DNA of 64,000 bases from Acidobacteriota bacterium. GTDB lineage: Bacteria; Acidobacteriota; Terriglobia; Bryobacterales; Bryobacteraceae. The position numbers and the translations under genes were made by a program. Below are positions 18,161 to 35,166 of the stretch, piece by piece. Below the pieces are notes generated by a model, which saw nothing but the letters and a program-made list of their open reading frames with translations, ran no database searches and had not been told where the DNA came from. The stretch lies in the NCBI GenBank assembly GCA_016185425.1, contig JACPNQ010000016.1, forward strand, positions 1 through 64,000. The letters run 5' to 3'. Within the stretch, counting starts at the first letter, position 1. Each line of letters opens with the position of its first letter.

Positions 18161-18994
18161 GTGAATCGAAGAGTATTTTTGTTTGGCCTGCCGGCGGCGG
18201 CGTTGTCCGCCTTCGGCTATGTGCGGTTTCTGGAACCTCGCTGGTTGGAGGAGACACAGAAAACGGTGGCGACCGGACGCGGTCTGCGCCGGCCGTTGCG
18301 CGTGGCGCATATCTCGGACTTTCACGCCTCGGCGCTGATCCCGATTTCGTTTTTGGAAGAGGCATTCCGCCGGACGCTTGCGATGCATCCGGACCTGATC
18401 TGCATCACCGGTGACTTCGTCACCACGGACAACGATTTCGATACCGCCAAGTACGAAACCATCCTGCAGATGCTCTCGGCGAAGGTGCCGACATTTGCCG
18501 TCGCCGGTAACCATGACGGCGGCAGTTGGGCGCGGCGAGCCGGGTGGTTGCCGACGAGCCGCTTTATCCGTGAAATGGTAGCGCGCGGCGGTGTACGGGT
18601 TCTTCATAACGATGCCGCACAGGTGGAAATTAACGGGCAGCGGGTGCATGTGGTTGGAGTGGGCGACTGGTGGTCGGATGAATTGAACCCCGGGCAGGCG
18701 TTTGCGCAGATTCCAAAAGATTCCGCGCCTATCCTGGTGATGAACCATAACCCGGATGGGAAGGAAGACTGCCGTTTGTACCCTTGGGATCTCATGCTCT
18801 GCGGCCATACCCATGGCGGACAGGTGATCGTTCCTTTTTACGGGCCGCCGATCGTGCCCGTAATCGACACACGCTATGCGGTGGGCCTGAATCAGTATCA
18901 GAATCGCTGGATTCACACGACACGGGGCGTAGGAAACATTGTAGGTGTCCGCGCCAACTGCCGGCCCGAAATCAGTTTACTGCTGGTTTCCTAA
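18161..18994 (+). CDS. metallophosphoesterase with twin-arginine-like leader
   Basis: 277-residue calcineurin-like phosphoesterase of the YaeI/YkuE type. All metal-binding blocks are present: AHISDFHAS, ITGDFVTTDND, AGNHDGG and CGHTHGGQ. The N-terminus MNRRVFLFGLPAAALSAFGYV is an export or anchor signal. Relatives act on lipid phosphates (UDP-diacylglucosamine hydrolase group), but the true substrate is not evident. It starts with GTG. Its TAA stop shares its final A with the ATG of the next gene. Confidence 0.88.
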   Translation: MNRRVFLFGLPAAALSAFGYVRFLEPRWLEETQKTVATGRGLRRPLRVAHISDFHASALIPISFLEEAFRRTLAMHPDLICITGDFVTTDNDFDTAKYETILQMLSAKVPTFAVAGNHDGGSWARRAGWLPTSRFIREMVARGGVRVLHNDAAQVEINGQRVHVVGVGDWWSDELNPGQAFAQIPKDSAPILVMNHNPDGKEDCRLYPWDLMLCGHTHGGQVIVPFYGPPIVPVIDTRYAVGLNQYQNRWIHTTRGVGNIVGVRANCRPEISLLLVS

Positions 18995-20856
18995 TGCGCC
19001 GCTACGCCACCGCCTTCGCCGCACTTGTGGCTGCGTTTGCCGGCTGGACGTATTTTCGGGCGACGCGGGCGGAGCGCGAGGCTCTCCAGGCCGTGAGGAG
19101 CGAAAGCGAAATCCGCTTTGAGCAGCAGACATTGAGCGATCCTCCGCCCGCCGGTTGGGAAACGATCGCGAGCCCCGCGGATTTTCGGGATGCGGTTGTC
19201 TGGAATGGAGAGTTGTATGTTGCCGGCGCCAACGCACTGTTTCGCTATCGCGTGGACGGAACGCTTCTGCAGACATGGCGCGCGGGGATGGAACTGCCGC
19301 CGGCGCCGCTGATGGCGTTGGCGGCCGGAGAGGAGTTGTGGGTGGCGACGGAAGGCGAAGGCGCGTTGTCGTTCGATGGCGCGCGCATTCGGCGCATCTT
19401 GCCTCCGGCGAGGAAAGTGAACGCGGTGCTACCGCTTTCAACCGGGGCTGTGCTATTCGGAACGGTGTCGCAAGGTGTGCTGCGGTACGATGGCACGCAT
19501 TTACGGCCGGCACATCCGTCGCTGGCATCGCTGGCCGTGACGGCGATAGCGGGCGCGGAGGACGACCTATGGGTCGGTACGCGGGATGCCGGTGTAGTAC
19601 ATCTGCGCGCCGGGCATGCGGAACGATTTTCCGAGGCCGAGGGCTTGCCGGACAAAGCCGTGCATTCCATCGCCGTCGATGGGGATCGGGCGTGGGTGGG
19701 GACCTCGACCGGCATCGCCGCCTTACAGGACGGCAAGCTGCAGCGCGTGATCGGTAAGGGACTGTTAGCCAAATCGCTGGCCGCACGCGGAAACGAATTG
19801 CTTGCGGGCACTCTTTCCGACGGCTGGCTGCGGATACCGCTGGAGGGGCGGGCGCCGCGGCCGGCCGCGGCCGGCGTGTCGCAGGGCGGGGAAGTACGGC
19901 GTGTCTTTTCTGTGGGCGAGGATGTGTACATTCTGCGGCCGGAGTCGCTCGATGTGCTGCGTGCCGGGCGGATCTCGAAAGCATTGAACGGGCAATCGGC
20001 GTTGCTGACGCATGGGAATGTCAGCGCGCTGGAGATGGATGCGAGCGGGCGGCTATGGGTGGGATATTTTGACCGCGGACTCGACATTGTTGAAATGAAT
20101 CGCCGCAGGATTACGCCTGTAGAGGATGAGCGGATATTCTGCGTGAACCGGATAAGGCGGTCGGAAGATGGACAGCGGGTGGCTGTGGCCACGGCGAACG
20201 GGCTGGTCTTTTTCGACGGCGGCCTGCGGCAGCGCCAGGTGATGACTCGCGCCGATGGCCTGATCGCTTCCCACGTGACCGACATTGTGCCGCGCGGACG
20301 CGGCTGGGTGGCGGCAACCCCGGCGGGATTGACCTTTTTGGACGGTGGGACACGGAGCGTCTATGCATTCCACGGGCTGGTGAATAACCATGTGTACGCC
20401 GCGGCGGCGGAAGGCGAGACCGTTCTGGCAGGCACGCTGGGAGGGTTGTCGGCGATGCGCGGAGAAACGGTGAAAACGAGCTATACGACCGCGAATTCCG
20501 CTTTGAAGACCAACTGGATTACCGCGCTGGCGCGATCCGGTACCGATTGGTTCGCGGGGACCTACGGAGGTGGCGTGCAGCGACTCGACTCCGCCGGTGT
20601 CTGGCACACCTTCGACAGCATGCCGGCAAATGTTGTGGTGAACCCGAATGCGATGACGGCAACGCCGCGCGGCGTCTACGCCGGCACGCTGGAACATGGA
20701 CTGCTGGTGTGGGATTTTCAACGGCAGGCTTGGCGGTCCATTCGAAAGGGATTACCTTCCGCCAACGTTACGGCGATCCTTTATCATGACAACAAGCTCT
20801 ACCTGGGCACCGGCAATGGATTGGCCGTCGTGCCGGAGAGCCTATTGGGGCTTTGA
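18994..20856 (+). CDS. membrane-anchored beta-propeller protein (two-component-regulator-propeller-like repeats)
   Basis: 620 residues. A single N-terminal membrane segment (MRRYATAFAALVAAFAGWTYF) is followed by repeats of the type 'ELWVATEGEGALSFDGARIRRI' and 'DLWVGTRDAGVVHLRAGHA', about a dozen in all, characteristic of Reg_prop/YVTN-like propellers. Unlike hybrid histidine kinases that carry these repeats, it has no kinase, PAS or receiver domain and ends with the propeller. It is probably an extracytoplasmic binding or sensing protein. The ATG at 18994 overlaps the upstream stop and is preferred over in-frame starts inside the previous gene. It overlaps the VIT/VWA gene by 1 bp. Confidence 0.82.
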   Translation: MRRYATAFAALVAAFAGWTYFRATRAEREALQAVRSESEIRFEQQTLSDPPPAGWETIASPADFRDAVVWNGELYVAGANALFRYRVDGTLLQTWRAGMELPPAPLMALAAGEELWVATEGEGALSFDGARIRRILPPARKVNAVLPLSTGAVLFGTVSQGVLRYDGTHLRPAHPSLASLAVTAIAGAEDDLWVGTRDAGVVHLRAGHAERFSEAEGLPDKAVHSIAVDGDRAWVGTSTGIAALQDGKLQRVIGKGLLAKSLAARGNELLAGTLSDGWLRIPLEGRAPRPAAAGVSQGGEVRRVFSVGEDVYILRPESLDVLRAGRISKALNGQSALLTHGNVSALEMDASGRLWVGYFDRGLDIVEMNRRRITPVEDERIFCVNRIRRSEDGQRVAVATANGLVFFDGGLRQRQVMTRADGLIASHVTDIVPRGRGWVAATPAGLTFLDGGTRSVYAFHGLVNNHVYAAAAEGETVLAGTLGGLSAMRGETVKTSYTTANSALKTNWITALARSGTDWFAGTYGGGVQRLDSAGVWHTFDSMPANVVVNPNAMTATPRGVYAGTLEHGLLVWDFQRQAWRSIRKGLPSANVTAILYHDNKLYLGTGNGLAVVPESLLGL

Positions 20857-23114
20857 TGCGACTTAGACTTTCGCTCTTGGTGCTGTGCGCAGGCGGTATG
20901 TTCGCGGATGTGGGGTCGTTGATTCCAACGTCCAAACAGGCGCCGGATCCTACGATTCTCTCGATGGAAGAGATGGCGATCGATATCCATATCGACGGCA
21001 GCAACGCCCGCGTCAACATGCGGCAGATTTTCGCCAGCCACGCACCGGCGATATCGGAAGGGAATTACGTTTTCGCGTTGCCGGGCGGCGCGCTGGTGTC
21101 TGACTTCGCCGTTTGGGACGGCCCGGTTCGCATTCCGGGTGTGATCCTGGAGCGGAAGCGCGCCGAGGAGTTGTACGAAAATATCCGCCTCCAGGCCATC
21201 GATCCGGGCTTACTGCAAATGGGAGAGAGCGATTCCGACGCCGGCCGGCGGACCACGGTCTTCAGCGCCAAAGTAGTGCCCATCCCGCCATTCGGCACCA
21301 AACGCCTTGAGATCGAGTATCACCAGCGCCTGCCGCTGGAAAACCTCATATCTTATCTCGCCATTCCGCTGAAGCCGGAGGCCTATCGGCAGCAGACCGT
21401 CGGCCGGTTGTGGATCACGCTCGAAGCGCAATCGGTTCATCCGATCGAGGCATTTGAGGTGGCGGGCAAGTCGTACCCGCTGCAAATTCAGGAGAAGACT
21501 GCGAATAACGTGCGCGCCGCGCTGGAGGTGCGCAATTTCATCCTGACCGAAGACTTCGCGGTGACGCTTCGCCGTGCGGCGCCGGGCGGGCCGGCGTTGA
21601 TGGTTGCGGCGCAGCGCGAGGTCGCGCCGGAACCGGGATACTTTGAGGCTTCTCTCCTGCTGCCGCGCGAGGCGCCGGCTGCGTCCGGCCCCCCGCGCCG
21701 CGTGACAGCGCTATTCGACGCTTCGCTCTCGATGCAGTGGGACAAACTGGAGCGTTCCTACGCGGCTCTGGCGAAACTCTTAACGAGCTTACGCCCGGAA
21801 GACAAGTTCGATTTGTTTGCTTTCAATTCGGCTGTGTCTCGCTATAGCGCGTCGCCATCTCCGGGCGGGACTGCGGAAGCGGAGAAGGCGCTGGCGTGGC
21901 TAAAGGAGCAGCCTCTTCGCGGCTCGACTAATTTAAACGCCGCGCTCGAAGCCGGCTTGGGCGCCGTGGATACCGGCAACGCTGCGCTCGTGCTATTCAG
22001 CGACGGCGGTGCGTCCGAAGGTGAGATCCGGAGCGGGAAGGTCGCCGACGCCTATGCAAGGAAATGGTCCGCATCGAAGAAGCCGCGGACCTTTGTTTTC
22101 GCGGTTGGCGATGATGCCAACGTGAACCTGTTGCGCGCGCTGGCGCGTAACGATGGCGTACTGGAAACCATCAATTCCACCGAGACGCCGGACTTCAAAC
22201 TGAACGCATTCCTGTCCAAGTTGCAGCGACGCCCTGTGGCCGGCTTGGCGCTGGCGGCGGACGCGAACCTGGCTGACGTCTATCCGCTGCAGGAGCAGAC
22301 GTACGGCGGGTCTGAGGCGGCGTGGGTGGGCCGGTACAAGCAGCCCGCTCGGACTACCTTCCGCGCCGGCGGCACTCAATTAGCCGTTGCACTGCCCGCG
22401 CAGGAATCCGCGCATCCGCAACTTCCCCGTATGTGGGCGAAGGCTCGCGTCGATGCGCTGCTTGAAAAGATTGAACGCGACGGCGAGGACAAAGCGACGA
22501 TCGATGAGATCATCCGCCTGTCCCGCAAGTACAAATTCGTCACTCCCTATACGTCTTTCCTCGCCGCGCCGCGCGCATTGTTACGGCCTCGTCTGATCCG
22601 CCCCGGCGACCCCGTGTTGCGAGTCCGCACCGACAAGCTGATCAGCTCCGTCGTCGCCGTGTTCCCGTTCGGACTCGTGAAACCGCTGCGGTTCCTGCCG
22701 GGCGAGGAGATCTGGCAGACACGCTTCCTGGCTCCTGTTGACATGCCCGATGGCACGCACAACGTCAATCTCGTCCTGCGTGATCGCAATGGCAACACTT
22801 ATAAGGAATCGCGCACATTCGTCATCGCAAGCAAGCCACCCGTTGTCCGGTCCCGGCTGGACAAAAAAACTTATCGCGCCGGTGAAAGCGTCATTGTCCG
22901 TGCCTCCGCTTCGGCTTCTACGCGAACCGTCACCGCGCGCATGTACGGCGTCGCTCCGGTCGCGCTCCGCTGGGATACAAAATCGCTGACCAACGCGGGC
23001 CAGTTTACAATTCCTCGCGACATCGCGCCCGGCCGCTACACCCTCACGGTGACAGCCGAAGACATGGCGCACAACATCGGTTCCGAGGAGGTGTCGCTTG
23101 ACGTTCTCCCGTAA
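20856..23114 (+). CDS. exported VIT/VWA domain protein
   Basis: 752 residues with a signal peptide (MRLRLSLLVLCAGGMFADVG). Residues about 30-200 form a VIT (vault protein inter-alpha-trypsin) domain (VRMRQIFASH-like segment, GNYVFALPGGALVSDFAVW, FGTKRLEIEYHQRLPLE). A von Willebrand A domain follows, with MIDAS-like FDASLSM, the STNLNAAL threonine region and LFSDGGASEG. The C-terminus contains an Ig-like beta region (VIVRASASASTRTVTARMYG). This architecture resembles marine proteobacterial sortase-associated and inter-alpha-trypsin-like proteins, but no sortase tail is seen. It overlaps the upstream gene by one base and the giant TPR gene by 17 bp, implying one mRNA. Confidence 0.85.
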   Translation: MRLRLSLLVLCAGGMFADVGSLIPTSKQAPDPTILSMEEMAIDIHIDGSNARVNMRQIFASHAPAISEGNYVFALPGGALVSDFAVWDGPVRIPGVILERKRAEELYENIRLQAIDPGLLQMGESDSDAGRRTTVFSAKVVPIPPFGTKRLEIEYHQRLPLENLISYLAIPLKPEAYRQQTVGRLWITLEAQSVHPIEAFEVAGKSYPLQIQEKTANNVRAALEVRNFILTEDFAVTLRRAAPGGPALMVAAQREVAPEPGYFEASLLLPREAPAASGPPRRVTALFDASLSMQWDKLERSYAALAKLLTSLRPEDKFDLFAFNSAVSRYSASPSPGGTAEAEKALAWLKEQPLRGSTNLNAALEAGLGAVDTGNAALVLFSDGGASEGEIRSGKVADAYARKWSASKKPRTFVFAVGDDANVNLLRALARNDGVLETINSTETPDFKLNAFLSKLQRRPVAGLALAADANLADVYPLQEQTYGGSEAAWVGRYKQPARTTFRAGGTQLAVALPAQESAHPQLPRMWAKARVDALLEKIERDGEDKATIDEIIRLSRKYKFVTPYTSFLAAPRALLRPRLIRPGDPVLRVRTDKLISSVVAVFPFGLVKPLRFLPGEEIWQTRFLAPVDMPDGTHNVNLVLRDRNGNTYKESRTFVIASKPPVVRSRLDKKTYRAGESVIVRASASASTRTVTARMYGVAPVALRWDTKSLTNAGQFTIPRDIAPGRYTLTVTAEDMAHNIGSEEVSLDVLP

Positions 23115-29919: not shown

Positions 29920-31526
29920 AACGCCGCTTGTTGTGGCTGCTCCCCTTGGTCGGCGCCGCAGTCTGGATGGTCGCGCAGAACGCCGCGCCCGCCCCGTCGC
30001 AGTTGCCGTACTTCCCGCCCGGCGCAATGCTCGCGCTCGACGCACGCGACTTCGGCCAGCTTCTCCGTGAATGGAATGGATCGCAGGCCAAACGCGACTG
30101 GCTCGCCAGCGATGCCTACCGCCAGTTCGCCGTTTCTCGGCTGTCGCAGCGTCTGCGGGAAGCCCAGCAGGAATTTGCCGATGCGGCCAGCGCCTCCGTC
30201 GATATGGACCTCGTTGAGCAACTCGCGGGCGATCGCACTTCCCTCGCGCTCTACAACCCCGGCGACCTCGAATTCCTCCTCGTCACCCGCATGCCGGAGG
30301 CCCGTTTCGCTGGTTCACTATTAGGCCGCAAGCGCGCGGCGCTTTCTCCCCGCAATGCGGCTGGTACGCCCTACTTCGTTGCCACAACGGCCGGTTCGCG
30401 CCGCGCCGTCGCGTTCTCCATAAGAGGGGAATGGCTCATCGCCGGCACCAGCGAAATGCTGGTTGCGCAGTGCCTGCAACGCATGGCCGCCAACAGCAAT
30501 AGCGGCCTCACCGCGGAAGAATGGTACGCCCGCGCCGCGCAGGCCGCCGGCGCGCCCGGCGAACTTCGTATGGCAGCGAACATTGACGCGCTCTACAACT
30601 CGCCTCATTTCCGCAGCTATTGGATCCACCGCAATCGCGCCGAGCTCCTGCCTTACCTCTCCACGATCAGCGACCTCGACCGCCAGTCCGCCGCCTGGAC
30701 CGAACGGCGCGTCCTGGTCCGCAAACAGGCCGTCTCCGTGAACTCCGTCAACGCCGCCAACTGGCCGCCACTCCTCCGTGCCGTCCCTGCCAGTGCCGGG
30801 CTCTATCGCGCATGGTTGCAGCCCGACGCCAATTACGCCGCCGCTCTGTTGGTGCAGAAATTCTTTGATCCGATGCCCGGAAGCCGCGCTGTTACCGAAT
30901 TGGCTCCCGGCGCGGTCAGCATCGGCGAAGCGGGTGAAGAAAACGCCTGGGACGACCGCATCGACGAAGCGCCGTTCGTTCCCGGCGACACGCGTCCCGA
31001 TGGCACACGCCTCGCGCAGTGGCTGGCCAACCAGCAATTGACCGGCCTCGTCCATATTCAGGGCACGCGCGACTCCGTGGACAATGTCTGGATTCACCAG
31101 GACACCGGCCTCGTCTTCACGCGAAATGGAAATTGGAATGCGGCCGAAGTGCAGTCGCAGCTCGCGCCGCTGGGCGCCGCTCCGGTTCAAACTGCGGTGG
31201 ATGGCAACCGCCTGCTGCTCGCCAACACGGCCGCGCTGCTCACCGCCATGCGTGCCGATTCCGCGAATCCGGCGCCCGCCGCCAATGTCCGTTTCACGGG
31301 GGTATTCCGTCATGGCAGTGAGCGCACCCGATTCACGCGCTGGATGGCACGCATCGGCCAGCCTACATACACGCCTCCTGCCCAAGGTCAGCAGCGCGAA
31401 CCGCAGTTCCTCGGCGACGTAATCGGCAGCCTGTCGCAGACACTTCGCAACGTGCGCGAACAATCGGTCACAGCCGCCGATACGGGTGACCGCCTCACGC
31501 AGACCATCGTCTATCGAATGCAGTGA
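29916..31526 (+). CDS. membrane-anchored or exported protein of unknown function
   Basis: 536 residues with an N-terminal signal/anchor (MKRRLLWLLPLVGAAVWMVAQ). The rest is soluble, with segments such as PPGAMLALDARDFGQLLREW and AGDRTSLALYNPGDLEFLLVTRMP, loosely reminiscent of DUF3352-type bacterial surface proteins. I do not recognise a catalytic motif. It sits between the giant TPR gene (4-bp overlap) and the miniature transpeptidase gene (1-bp overlap), so a role in the same envelope process is likely by context only. Confidence 0.75.
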   Translation: MKRRLLWLLPLVGAAVWMVAQNAAPAPSQLPYFPPGAMLALDARDFGQLLREWNGSQAKRDWLASDAYRQFAVSRLSQRLREAQQEFADAASASVDMDLVEQLAGDRTSLALYNPGDLEFLLVTRMPEARFAGSLLGRKRAALSPRNAAGTPYFVATTAGSRRAVAFSIRGEWLIAGTSEMLVAQCLQRMAANSNSGLTAEEWYARAAQAAGAPGELRMAANIDALYNSPHFRSYWIHRNRAELLPYLSTISDLDRQSAAWTERRVLVRKQAVSVNSVNAANWPPLLRAVPASAGLYRAWLQPDANYAAALLVQKFFDPMPGSRAVTELAPGAVSIGEAGEENAWDDRIDEAPFVPGDTRPDGTRLAQWLANQQLTGLVHIQGTRDSVDNVWIHQDTGLVFTRNGNWNAAEVQSQLAPLGAAPVQTAVDGNRLLLANTAALLTAMRADSANPAPAANVRFTGVFRHGSERTRFTRWMARIGQPTYTPPAQGQQREPQFLGDVIGSLSQTLRNVREQSVTAADTGDRLTQTIVYRMQ

Positions 31527-32203
31527 TGCTCTCCCGCCGTTCGCTCCTCGCCGCCGCAGCCTGGCCGAATCAACCGCCGGCCGAGCGAATTGTGCTCCGC
31601 CTCCCTGGCCTGCAAATCGTGCGTACCGATTGGAGCGAAAGGATCGACTCACCCGCACAGCCGGCGAGCCTCTGGAAGCCCTTCCTTGCCGCCGCCCACA
31701 CCGGCCCCCCGCCGCGCTACTACTGCGATGGCAGCCAGTGCTGGCTGGGCCGAAGACATGGCTGGCTCGACTTGCCCGCCGCTCTCTCGCAGTCGTGCAA
31801 TCAGTGGTTCCATCAACTGTTCGTCACGCTTCCGCGGCCGCTGCCAACGCTGCAAATGTTCGGGCTGCCTCCGCAATCGGATGCCGATTGGACCCAATGG
31901 GCCTGTCCCCCATCCACTCTGGCGCATGCCTTTGCGGAATTGATCGCGCGCCGGATGGATCATCCGCTCGTTATCGCTGGGCTCCGTCAGGGCGCGGAGC
32001 GGGGAACTGCGAAATCTCTCGGCCGCGGCTACCTTGCGAAAACCGGCACAGGCCCGTCGAAGTTCCACAGCGGCGACGGCTGGGTGGTCGCCGCCCATCC
32101 TGTCGATACGCCCACTTGCCTCGTGCTATATCGCCAACGCGGCATCACCGGAGCGCAAGCCGCCGCCGCTCTCGCGGCCGAATGGAAGAAGGAGCGCTAT
32201 TGA
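31526..32203 (+). CDS. miniature penicillin-binding-protein-like transpeptidase
   Basis: 225 residues with a short leader (MLSRRSLLAAAA). The three active-site motifs of penicillin-interacting transpeptidases are present in order: SxxK as ASLWKPF (near residue 48), SxN as SQSCNQWFHQL (near 89) and KTG as YLAKTGTG (near 170). The context of each (SxxKP; SCNxxFxQL) resembles class B PBPs such as FtsI/PBP2, but the whole domain is about half the normal length and has no pedestal or membrane-spanning stem. The ATG overlaps the upstream stop; the next gene, SpoIID-like, begins directly after its stop. Activity against peptidoglycan is inferred, not shown. A GTG three bases earlier is an alternative start. 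Confidence 0.7.
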   Translation: MLSRRSLLAAAAWPNQPPAERIVLRLPGLQIVRTDWSERIDSPAQPASLWKPFLAAAHTGPPPRYYCDGSQCWLGRRHGWLDLPAALSQSCNQWFHQLFVTLPRPLPTLQMFGLPPQSDADWTQWACPPSTLAHAFAELIARRMDHPLVIAGLRQGAERGTAKSLGRGYLAKTGTGPSKFHSGDGWVVAAHPVDTPTCLVLYRQRGITGAQAAAALAAEWKKERY

Positions 32204-33079
32204 ATGTTCCTCGTCAAAGTCGCCCTTCTCACTCTCCTCCACCCGCAGCAAGTCGTTGTCAACGGCACGCGCATTGTACGCCAGGGCGCGAAGCTGGAAG
32301 TGTCCGGAAACCTCCACAACAAGCTCACCTTCACTGGCAAACTCCTCGTCGCCGTCAACCAGGAATTCCGCCGCCATTATGTCGGCGAACTCGAGGTCAC
32401 ATCGAAAAATGACGAGCTCCAGCTTCTCCTCAAAACGAACAGCGAAGATCTTGTAGCCGCCATCGTTAGTGCTGAAAGTCCGCCCGGCGCGCCCCCCGCC
32501 GCTCTGGAAGCGCAAGCTATTCTTGCGCGCTCCTGGATCGCGGCTTCGCGGGGCCGCCATGGCCAGTTCGACCTCTGTGACACCACTCACTGCCAACATT
32601 TCAAGGAGCCAGCGCCCGCTGGTGTCAGGGCGGCCAGGAACACGGCGGGCCTCCATCTGGTGTGGCAAGGGAGACCGTTCGCGCCCGCCTATTCGGCTAG
32701 CTGCGGCGGTCGTACCAAAACCGCTGAAGCCATCGGTTGGGACGATCAAGGCAAGTACCCATATTTCGCCGTCGACTGCCCCATCTGCGTCCGCGACGAA
32801 CCGCGGTGGACCCGCCGCTTTGACGACGCTGACCTTACCGAAATCCGCGTCCATCCGCACCAGGAGAGGTTCCGCCTGGCCATCGGCCGCAGGCTTGGGT
32901 GGTCCGCGCTCCCCGGCAACAACTATGAAATCGACGGCAGCGAGGTTGTGGGAAAAGGGCAAGGTCACGGCCTCGGCTACTGTCAGCGCGGCGGCGCGGG
33001 CATGGCGAAACAGGGCGCTTCCGTCGCCGCCATCCTCAACCACTACTTCCCGGGCACGGCTATCATCAGTAGTCGATGA
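32204..33079 (+). CDS. SpoIID/LytB domain protein (glycan-strand lytic transglycosylase-like)
   Basis: 291 residues. Family landmarks: the catalytic-Glu region VSAESPPGAPPAALEAQAILARSW (near residues 88-111), the DTTHCQHF segment, YSASCGGRTKTAEA, and the C-terminal KGQGHGLGYCQRGGAGMAKQG followed by ILNHYFPG. SpoIID in Bacillus cleaves glycan strands stripped of stem peptides; homologues in non-sporulating bacteria act in envelope remodelling or division. Beginning immediately after a transpeptidase-like gene, it suggests a peptidoglycan-modifying pair. The ATG directly follows the upstream TGA and the 3' end overlaps the next gene by 4 bp. The leader is short and only weakly signal-like. Confidence 0.88.
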   Translation: MFLVKVALLTLLHPQQVVVNGTRIVRQGAKLEVSGNLHNKLTFTGKLLVAVNQEFRRHYVGELEVTSKNDELQLLLKTNSEDLVAAIVSAESPPGAPPAALEAQAILARSWIAASRGRHGQFDLCDTTHCQHFKEPAPAGVRAARNTAGLHLVWQGRPFAPAYSASCGGRTKTAEAIGWDDQGKYPYFAVDCPICVRDEPRWTRRFDDADLTEIRVHPHQERFRLAIGRRLGWSALPGNNYEIDGSEVVGKGQGHGLGYCQRGGAGMAKQGASVAAILNHYFPGTAIISSR

Positions 33080-35166
33080 TTCTGTCGACGCTCCTCCTCG
33101 CCGCCGCTCTGCCTGGCACCGAAGCGCTCACTCGCGAAGGCGATCTCGCCCTGCAAATGGTCGATGGCATTGACCGCTACCTCGCCCGTCGTATCCAAAA
33201 CGACCGGCCCTCCGCACCTCCCGGCCGCGACCGTTTCCGCCGCATCATCGGCCTCGCCGACGCCCGTCTGCCCAATATCGAACTTACGCGCCGCGCCCAA
33301 CTCGCCTCCACCCGCGCTTATGACATCCACGCCGTCCGCTGGTCCGTCTTTGAAAACGTCGATGCCGATGGCCTTCTTATCGAACCCAAAGAGCAAGCCA
33401 CTTGCCTCGCCGTCGCCATTCCGGACGCGGATCAGACACCCGAAGCAGTCGCTCAGTTCTACGCGGTGCGCCTGGCTGAGAACGGTTGCCGCACGCTTAT
33501 TCCTACGCTCATCGACCGCCACGACGAATGGTCCGGCAATCCAGCCATTCGCATGACCAACCAGCCGCACCGCGAATACATCTATCGAATGGCTTATCAG
33601 GCCGGCCGCCACATCATCGGCTACGAGGTGCAAAAGGTACTCGCCGCCGTCGACTGGCTCAAAGCCGCCCACCCCCAACTCCCTGTCCTTGTCTCGGGCT
33701 ACGGCGAAGGCGGACTCATCGCCTTCTACTCCGCCGCCGTCGATGAGCGTATCCAAACCACAGTCGTCAGCGGCTACTTTCGCAATCGCCGGACTATCCA
33801 TAACGAGCCCATCTACCGCAACGTGTGGTCGCTTCTCCCCAACTATGGCGACGCCGAAATCGCCCGCCTCATCGCACCGCGCAAGCTCATCATCGAGGCC
33901 CAGCGTCATCCCAACGTGCAAGGCCCTCCGGCCGCGCGCGCGGGCCGCCTTGGCGCCGCTCCCGGTAGCATCACCACTCCCGCTATCGAAGAAGTCCGGG
34001 CGGAGATCCAGCGCGCCAACGCCGCCAACATCACCCTCATCGAAAAGCCCGGCGAAGCGACGCTCCAAGCATTCCTGGGCCGCGATCCGAAACCGCCGGG
34101 CACTCCACCAACGCTTCCCAAGACCGATCGAATGGAGCGCCAGTTCCGTCAACTTGTGGAGTTCACCCAGCGCACTGTCCGCAATGCGGAGCGCGCTCGC
34201 AAACAATACTGGTCCAAAGCCGATCTGACCTCTCCCTCCGCCTGGGCCAACACGCGCGGGTACTACGAGGAACAGTTCCAGACCGAGATCATCGGCCGCC
34301 TGCCGAAGCCCGCCGGCGCGCCGAAACCGGAAACGCGCCCGATCTATGATTCACATCTCTTCGAAGGCTACGAAGTCTACCTCCCCGTTTACGACGAAGT
34401 GTTCGCCTACGGTGTGCTGCTGATCCCGAAAGGCATGAAGCCCGGCGAACGGCGTCCACTCGTCATTGCGCAGCACGGGCTGGAGGGCCGCCCGCAGGAA
34501 ATCATCCAACCCACCATTCCTGGCGAAATGCGCACCTACCAGCGCTTCGCTGCCCGGCTCGCCGAGCGCGGCTTCATTGTCTTCGCCCCGCAGAATCCCT
34601 ATATCCATGGCGAGAAATTCCGGCAGCTTTGCCGCAAGGGTGACCCACTGCAAATAGGCCTCTTCGCCTTCATTGGCGCTCAATACTCCCGCGCCATCGA
34701 CTGGCTGGAAACTCTGCCCTTCGTCGACAAAGACCGCATCGGCTTCTATGGGCTCAGCTACGGCGGTGCTACCGCCGTTCGCGTCCCTGCGATGGAGCCG
34801 CGTATTAAGGCAGTTATCTGTTCCGGCAATTTCAATGAATGGTCCTGGAAGATCACCACCGAAGAGCATCCCTTCACCTACCAATTCACGCGCGAGTACG
34901 AGATCTACGAGTTCAACCAGACCAATACCTTCGGTCATGCGGAAATGGCAACGCTCATCGCCCCGCGTCCGTTCTTTGTCGAGCGAGGCCACTCCGATGG
35001 CGTCGGCATCGACGAGTGGGTTTCCTATGAATACGCGAAAGTGCGCCGCCTCTACGCGCAATGGCAAATTGGCGATCGCACCGGCATCGAGTTCTTCAAC
35101 GGAGTGCATCAGATCTGGGGCCACGGCGCATTTGAGTTTCTGCACCGGCACCTCCAGTGGCCTTAG
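33076..35166 (+). CDS. exported tandem alpha/beta-hydrolase (acetyl-xylan-esterase-like), first domain degenerate
   Basis: 696 residues with a cleavable-looking leader (MILSTLLLAAALPGTEA). Two hydrolase-fold halves are visible. The first has its nucleophile elbow as VLVSGYGEGGLIAF, where the consensus GxSxG Ser is replaced by Gly, so it is probably inactive. The second has a normal elbow GFYGLSYGGATAV (GLSYG) and a late region ending HQIWGHGAFEFL that can supply the His. It resembles secreted dienelactone-hydrolase/acetyl-xylan-esterase-like proteins of Acidobacteria. It is the last member of the overlapping gene run (4-bp overlap with the SpoIID-like gene) and stops 6 bp from the convergent HEAT-like gene. 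Confidence 0.82.
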   Translation: MILSTLLLAAALPGTEALTREGDLALQMVDGIDRYLARRIQNDRPSAPPGRDRFRRIIGLADARLPNIELTRRAQLASTRAYDIHAVRWSVFENVDADGLLIEPKEQATCLAVAIPDADQTPEAVAQFYAVRLAENGCRTLIPTLIDRHDEWSGNPAIRMTNQPHREYIYRMAYQAGRHIIGYEVQKVLAAVDWLKAAHPQLPVLVSGYGEGGLIAFYSAAVDERIQTTVVSGYFRNRRTIHNEPIYRNVWSLLPNYGDAEIARLIAPRKLIIEAQRHPNVQGPPAARAGRLGAAPGSITTPAIEEVRAEIQRANAANITLIEKPGEATLQAFLGRDPKPPGTPPTLPKTDRMERQFRQLVEFTQRTVRNAERARKQYWSKADLTSPSAWANTRGYYEEQFQTEIIGRLPKPAGAPKPETRPIYDSHLFEGYEVYLPVYDEVFAYGVLLIPKGMKPGERRPLVIAQHGLEGRPQEIIQPTIPGEMRTYQRFAARLAERGFIVFAPQNPYIHGEKFRQLCRKGDPLQIGLFAFIGAQYSRAIDWLETLPFVDKDRIGFYGLSYGGATAVRVPAMEPRIKAVICSGNFNEWSWKITTEEHPFTYQFTREYEIYEFNQTNTFGHAEMATLIAPRPFFVERGHSDGVGIDEWVSYEYAKVRRLYAQWQIGDRTGIEFFNGVHQIWGHGAFEFLHRHLQWP

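Follow-up and report, generated by a model that had tools for sequence, protein, structure and literature searches.

A compact PBP2-related penicillin-binding protein encoded next to SpoIID in Acidobacteriota and its relation to YfaQ

The window analyzed here comprises 64,000 nucleotides of contig JACPNQ010000016.1 of an Acidobacteriota bacterium (assembly GCA_016185425.1). It contains a row of genes that includes those for a short penicillin-binding protein (PBP) and a SpoIID-like protein (Table 1). The order of a β-propeller gene, a VIT-VWA gene, a TPR gene (~2070–2500 aa), a gene for a protein like the 536-aa protein and the short PBP gene was found in 20/20 loci with extended flanks. In the window, the open reading frame of the propeller protein begins upstream of its likelier start, an internal methionine (MRRYATAF...). 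The 536-aa protein gave no match in Pfam or NCBIfam. Its structural model (pLDDT 79) had as its only PDB match Treponema TP0453 (E = 1e-4, with a low TM-score), and an identity as a DUF2138 (YfaA-like) protein received no support in hhalign (E = 0.17). Translation of the short PBP starts at the ATG at 31526, with a GTG one codon upstream as the alternative. Downstream of the spoIID gene, whose stop it overlaps with its start, a gene at 33076-35166 encodes a large protein with α/β-hydrolase (acetyl xylan esterase-like) matches. Relatives do not have this gene conserved beside the module, and it does not belong to the PBP-SpoIID operon unit. No α2-macroglobulin (A2M) was detected in the window with Pfam, and a search of the genome gave no bMG3 match. 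Four ordinary, full-size transpeptidase domains are encoded elsewhere in the genome; therefore, the short PBP is not the housekeeping PBP of this bacterium.

Table 1. Genes and motifs of the operon in the window.
Feature	Position	Strand	Evidence or conservation
β-propeller protein (Reg_prop)	18784..20856	+	conserved operon partner, 20/20 extended loci
VIT-VWA protein, C-terminal Ig-like domain	20853..23114	+	conserved operon partner, 20/20 extended loci
Giant TPR protein, ~2270 aa	23098..29919	+	conserved operon partner
Unannotated 536-aa protein, N-terminal hydrophobic helix	29916..31526	+	conserved upstream neighbor
Short PBP2-like penicillin-binding domain protein, 225 aa	31526..32203	+	motifs, profiles, fold, family alignment
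SxxK motif, S48-L-W-K51	31667..31678	+	S and K invariant in 57/57 direct relatives
SxN motif, S90-C-N92	31793..31801	+	invariant in 57/57 direct relatives
KTG motif, K172-T-G174	32039..32047	+	invariant in 57/57 direct relatives
SpoIID lytic-transglycosylase-like protein, 291 aa	32204..33079	+	PF08486 E = 6e-14, TIGR02669 E = 3.5e-34

An earlier reading of the sequence only had recognized SLWK, SCN and KTG, in this order, in the 225 residues of the short PBP. The family alignment bears this out, as the catalytic S and K, S and N, and K, T and G occupy the same columns in all 57 direct relatives. Also identical in all of them are C67, C72, W73, H78, G160 and T161, the last two being part of a PBP-typical GTA (residues 160–162) that precedes KTG. 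A chance match to the motifs is rejected by this invariance. The catalytic residues are present as well in 20/20 further, mostly more distant members (the KTGS of L127 was read separately, its row being shifted in the 20-member alignment), and are, in total, retained in 77/77 of the Acidobacteriota family members examined. Relatives were found in 42 of 299 genomes of the same class. A scan of GTDB contigs gave 45 short-PBP loci, all but one with acidobacterial titles; the remaining one, L051, has a Betaproteobacteria title, yet a typical acidobacterial operon, and is probably a mislabeled or misbinned MAG. A profile search in 396 Acidobacteriota genomes gave a tally of 375, which is not an orthologue count, and because it includes ordinary PBPs matched over part of their domain, the stronger loci were inspected individually (20 were examined).

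In profile searches, the window protein scored 15 bits against PF00905, where the Pfam cut-off is 22.1, and 54/57 of the family match this profile at E ≤ 0.001. The PBP2 profile of NCBIfam, TIGR03423, was matched over residues 41–98 (E = 1.1e-5, 24.3 bits). It is also matched by 56/57 direct relatives, and PBP2 is the best-matching family. A segment C-G...CW..HG...A..SCN.YF and a GTA-x(n)-KTGT element are typical of PBP2. The former, as C-G...CW..(G)HG...A..SCN.YF, is common to PBP2/MrdA (TIGR03423, PF00905) and the short PBP, which further share the order of SxxK, SxN and KTG, the GTA before KTG, and the predicted fold. In contrast to PBP2, the short PBP has ~75% of the length of the Pfam domain and a motif spacing of 42/82 (see below), lacks a PBP dimerization domain and a clear transmembrane anchor, and is paired or fused with SpoIID. 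Moreover, its score with TIGR03423 is far below the 455 bits of the equivalog criterion, and it does not have the full multidomain length. Judged by its sequence, the protein is to be regarded as a relative of PBP2 and not as PBP2 itself, and the family as a whole is an acyl-serine domain, compact, derived from PBP2 and strongly constrained.

Among the checks proposed in the sequence-only reading were a structure prediction and a search for short family members. The latter returned short relatives that retain the catalytic residues and none lacking them. For the former, an AlphaFold2 model was built with 30 homologues (mean pLDDT 92.2, pTM 0.89). In Foldseek, the model matched 897 PDB chains at E ≤ 0.001, with a probability of 1.00 for all matches listed; TEM-1 (E = 4e-9) and class B PBPs were at the top, the latter mostly with TM-scores of 0.66–0.77 by query length. 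Thus, the predicted fold is that of penicillin-recognizing proteins, both PBPs and β-lactamases, and the geometry of the motifs with S48, S90 and K172 may be inferred from these fold matches. The spacings from SxxK to SxN and from SxN to KTG are 42 and 82 residues in the window protein, as compared with 52/135 in Escherichia coli FtsI, 66/103 in DacA and 48/87 in E. coli YfaQ, and range from 40–48 and 61–113 within the short-PBP family. Hence, the shortening relative to a normal domain lies mainly between SxN and KTG. The domain had been described as half of a normal transpeptidase domain; it is short indeed, but 'half' is somewhat overstated for 225 aa against 299 Pfam positions. Based on the fold match and the motif spacing, the short PBP is a compact member and not a truncated half.

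The spoIID gene begins with the first base past the stop codon of the short PBP gene, so that the direct succession of the two genes, as described from the sequence before, is correct. It is the single spoIID gene found in the genome. Residues E91, H119, C125, H129 and C130 of the protein are invariant in the SpoIID family alignment and match the catalytic glutamate and zinc ligands of Clostridioides difficile SpoIID, i.e., E101, H134, C140, H145 and C146, among which E101, C140 and H145 are needed for activity in vitro (PMC6221140). SpoIID adjoins the short PBP in 42/45 loci of the contig scan, which have shorter flanks, and follows it in 17/20 extended loci; the two sets share some genomes. 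Three exceptions were checked and have one SpoIID each, elsewhere in the genome. Short PBPs without SpoIID beside them were seen in L047/L088, L093, L096, L064 and L072. As the TGA stop codon in the window is followed by an ATG in the same frame, readthrough into a PBP-SpoIID fusion was considered; it was rejected, as same-frame adjacency occurs in only 11/66 loci and shows no consistent link with a missing SpoIID leader. Ordinary translational coupling of the two genes is likelier.

The N-terminal leader of the window PBP (31526-31560) is weak, and it is absent in three relatives of the same genus. SpoIID of the window (32204-32250) has little leader and starts almost at the first conserved strand. 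Clear signal sequences are present on most PBPs of the family and on their SpoIIDs; this, together with the invariant cysteine pair, suggests that the two window proteins are exported as well. Weak or missing signal sequences on the short PBP, SpoIID or both were also observed in L002–L004, L034, L038, L058 and L068.

Among the 20 stronger loci, the short PBP domain and SpoIID are fused in 13 and encoded by separate neighboring genes in seven; in one of these seven, L133, which has a window-type operon, ~800 bases lie between the two genes. Domain fusion in other lineages is classic evidence for joint function. The module occurs in three contexts: the window-type operon, a PBP-SpoIID fusion behind TPR genes, and PBP-SpoIID combined with an HExxH motif. 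The second context is represented by eight loci, with an upstream TPR gene within the fetched stretch in six of them (L117, L118, L120, L121, L122 and L124). In L117 and L118, a gene for a ~510-aa protein separates the fusion from the TPR gene, and that of L118 is distantly similar to the 536-aa protein of the window (E = 9e-6). The HExxH motif is found C-terminally in nine loci, six of which (L125, L126, L127, L128, L129 and L135) adjoin a gene for an A2M with a CxEQ thioester motif, kept in all six; in the other three, no A2M was found within the fetched flanks, where the larger neighbors were scanned.

An A2M is also encoded in the E. coli operon yfaA-yfaT-yfaS-yfaQ-yfaP, where it is YfaS. 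YfaQ of E. coli K-12 (L032:1652-3298; 549 aa) contains S60LWK63, S108CG and K195TW, in the order seen in the short PBPs, a SpoIID segment in the middle (27 bits with Pfam) and HEYLH at the C terminus, a possible metallopeptidase-like site. YfaQ of a Citrobacter (L079:7941-9584) likewise combines a degenerate PBP-like part (SLWK, SCG, KTW), a SpoIID-like part and HEYLH. In profile comparisons, with E-values that are those of single comparisons, the short PBPs matched the pair of YfaQ sequences with E = 2.2e-6 in an alignment running from SxxK to KTG, the SpoIID family matched YfaQ with E = 8e-5, and the negative control YfaA gave no match (E = 0.41). YfaQ has no transpeptidase match in Pfam or NCBIfam, and its detectable similarity on the PBP side is, therefore, to the compact short-PBP family. 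When the fused acidobacterial proteins were compared with YfaQ in hhalign, only the SpoIID part aligned, so that the correspondence of the HExxH sites rests on motif and position. DUF2300 (PF10062), the family of YfaQ, did not match the window protein, and none of the proteins of the 396 Acidobacteriota genomes exceeded its cut-off. Relatives of YfaQ were not found in viral contigs, and plasmids gave only E. coli and one Citrobacter; consequently, YfaQ is represented in the comparison by two sequences. The profile similarity in both parts, the succession of a compact PBP-like and a SpoIID-like domain, and the similar spacing of the motifs offer good support for homology between the PBP-SpoIID module and YfaQ, where the module would be fused and its PBP part decayed with the loss of SxN and KTG. 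YfaQ differs from the window pair in being a single protein with SCG and KTW, whereas the window has two genes with SxN and KTG, and in possessing the C-terminal HEYLH domain, which the pair lacks. Furthermore, the operon in the window is without A2M, whereas such a link exists in other Acidobacteriota, as in the six HExxH loci mentioned above. The A2M of the Citrobacter yfa-type operon is devoid of CxEQ; it is suggestive only, but in the few cases seen the thioester and PBP catalysis were lost together.

We consider the short PBP to be, with fair probability, a catalytically intact, PBP2-derived DD-peptidase that is paired with SpoIID for the processing of peptidoglycan. The module and its homology are well supported; we infer catalysis, the bond that is cut, a location outside the cytoplasm and a biological role. 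Ser48, assisted by Lys51, Ser90 and Lys172, would attack D-Ala-D-Ala or the cross-link end of a stem peptide, which would then be released by hydrolysis, i.e., by DD-carboxypeptidase or endopeptidase action. As SpoIID would cut the glycan strand, the result would be a module acting on two bonds of peptidoglycan. Much like the engulfment pair of SpoIIP and SpoIID, but with a serine peptidase taking the part of SpoIIP, the two enzymes may trim or open the wall at a local site. This might serve a large assembly in the envelope, which the operon itself would build with the propeller, VIT-VWA, giant TPR and 540-aa proteins. SpoIID of Bacillus subtilis and C. difficile needs denuded glycan, which a DD-peptidase alone does not make. 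In C. difficile, SpoIIP, an enzyme with both endopeptidase and amidase activity, acts first and SpoIID second (PMC6221140), whereas peptidoglycan that still bears peptides is also a substrate of Waddlia SpoIID (PMC6635528). The window pair thus resembles the SpoIID-SpoIIM-SpoIIP engulfment complex (SpoIID, PF08486) in the retained catalytic glutamate and zinc ligands of SpoIID and in the logic of pairing one peptide-acting with one glycan-cutting enzyme; it differs in having a penicillin-binding domain, and not SpoIIP, as the enzyme for the peptide, and the sporulation context is absent. By this analogy, a DD-peptidase in the role of SpoIIP, together with SpoIID, would be the most economical model. 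The pairing had been noted only in passing from the sequence; the main point is that the compact PBP and SpoIID constitute a conserved two-enzyme module.

The first reading of the sequence had left the choice between a minimal transpeptidase and an inactive decoy. The minimal penicillin-binding domain stands, given the fold, the motifs and their family-wide conservation, whereas the decoy is disfavored for the window protein because none of the 77 family members has lost a catalytic residue. In a related scenario, which we consider unlikely, the short PBP would be a non-catalytic or slow stem-peptide receptor. By binding D-Ala-D-Ala ends, or by becoming acylated a single time, it would position SpoIID or the operon-encoded complex on peptidoglycan. 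The reduced size of the protein and the nearly constant presence of a glycan-cutting partner are consistent with such a role, and YfaQ, where the fusion persists after loss of SxN and KTG in the PBP part, indicates that the wider family does include a non-catalytic role. However, pure binders usually lose some catalytic residues, and these persist throughout the Acidobacteriota members. Even less probable is a minimal cross-linking transpeptidase, with SpoIID trimming glycan in a unit for repair or local synthesis. PBP2, the closest profile, is itself a transpeptidase, and A2M genes are often paired with the gene for PBP1C, which has been proposed to repair damage (PMC4498604), but the stretch from SxN to KTG is far shorter (82 residues vs. 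135 in FtsI), the operon provides a degradative SpoIID and no partner glycosyltransferase, and the four full-size transpeptidase domains are available elsewhere in the genome. A β-lactamase or β-lactam sensor is very improbable: the small fold is similar to that of class A enzymes, and TEM-1 is among the top Foldseek matches, but the sequence family is that of PBP2, the operon and the fusions speak for peptidoglycan, and the protein carries neither a regulator nor a sensor domain. A class A β-lactamase specifically was rejected, as no acidic residue that could serve as the deacylating glutamate of the omega loop is invariant between SxN and KTG in the 57-member alignment. Finally, a decaying pseudogene or chance open reading frame with PBP-like motifs, as its shortness, weak leader and single-sequence score below the Pfam cut-off might suggest, is practically discounted by the absence of internal stop codons, the conserved operon position and the invariant catalytic residues in all relatives.

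The DD-peptidase and SpoIID pair can be placed, tentatively, in a wider scheme that we regard as possible rather than likely. The compact PBP2-derived DD-peptidase with SpoIID, sometimes with an HExxH metallopeptidase, might have been the original enzyme of bacterial A2M operons, in which A2M would sense or trap an attacking protease and the module would remodel or repair the wall at that site. The thioester and PBP catalysis would then have decayed together in E. coli and relatives (type II A2M, YfaQ), whereas Terriglobia would have re-deployed the module with an envelope complex of giant TPR and VIT-VWA proteins. Many Gram-negative bacteria have type II A2M operons, such as yfa and mag. In the Mag operon of Pseudomonas aeruginosa (magABCDEF; type II A2M), MagE would occupy the position of YfaQ, as compared by gene order only; in the window operon, VIT-VWA, TPR and propeller proteins take the place of A2M. 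The mag operon protects against VgrG3 and Tae1, which are peptidoglycan-attacking T6SS effectors (PMC12663445). This protection would fit a wall-related role of A2M operons.

In the open-access literature, no description of a PBP-SpoIID module was found, which is not proof of novelty, nor any paper on DUF2300, and the combination of macroglobulin and SpoIID gave only unrelated cyanobacterial proteome work. As a decayed PBP-SpoIID-HExxH protein, YfaQ would link the A2M operons yfa and mag to cell-wall chemistry. This would be the first plausible biochemistry for YfaQ, and its recognition through intact relatives such as the window pair would make the role of these operons directly testable. The short PBP, with its catalytic set complete, also ranks among the more compact penicillin-binding domains and may, therefore, be used to probe the minimal fold needed. 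A still smaller relative than the window protein, of only 200 aa, was seen in L005; it has 61 residues between SxN and KTG and keeps all catalytic residues.
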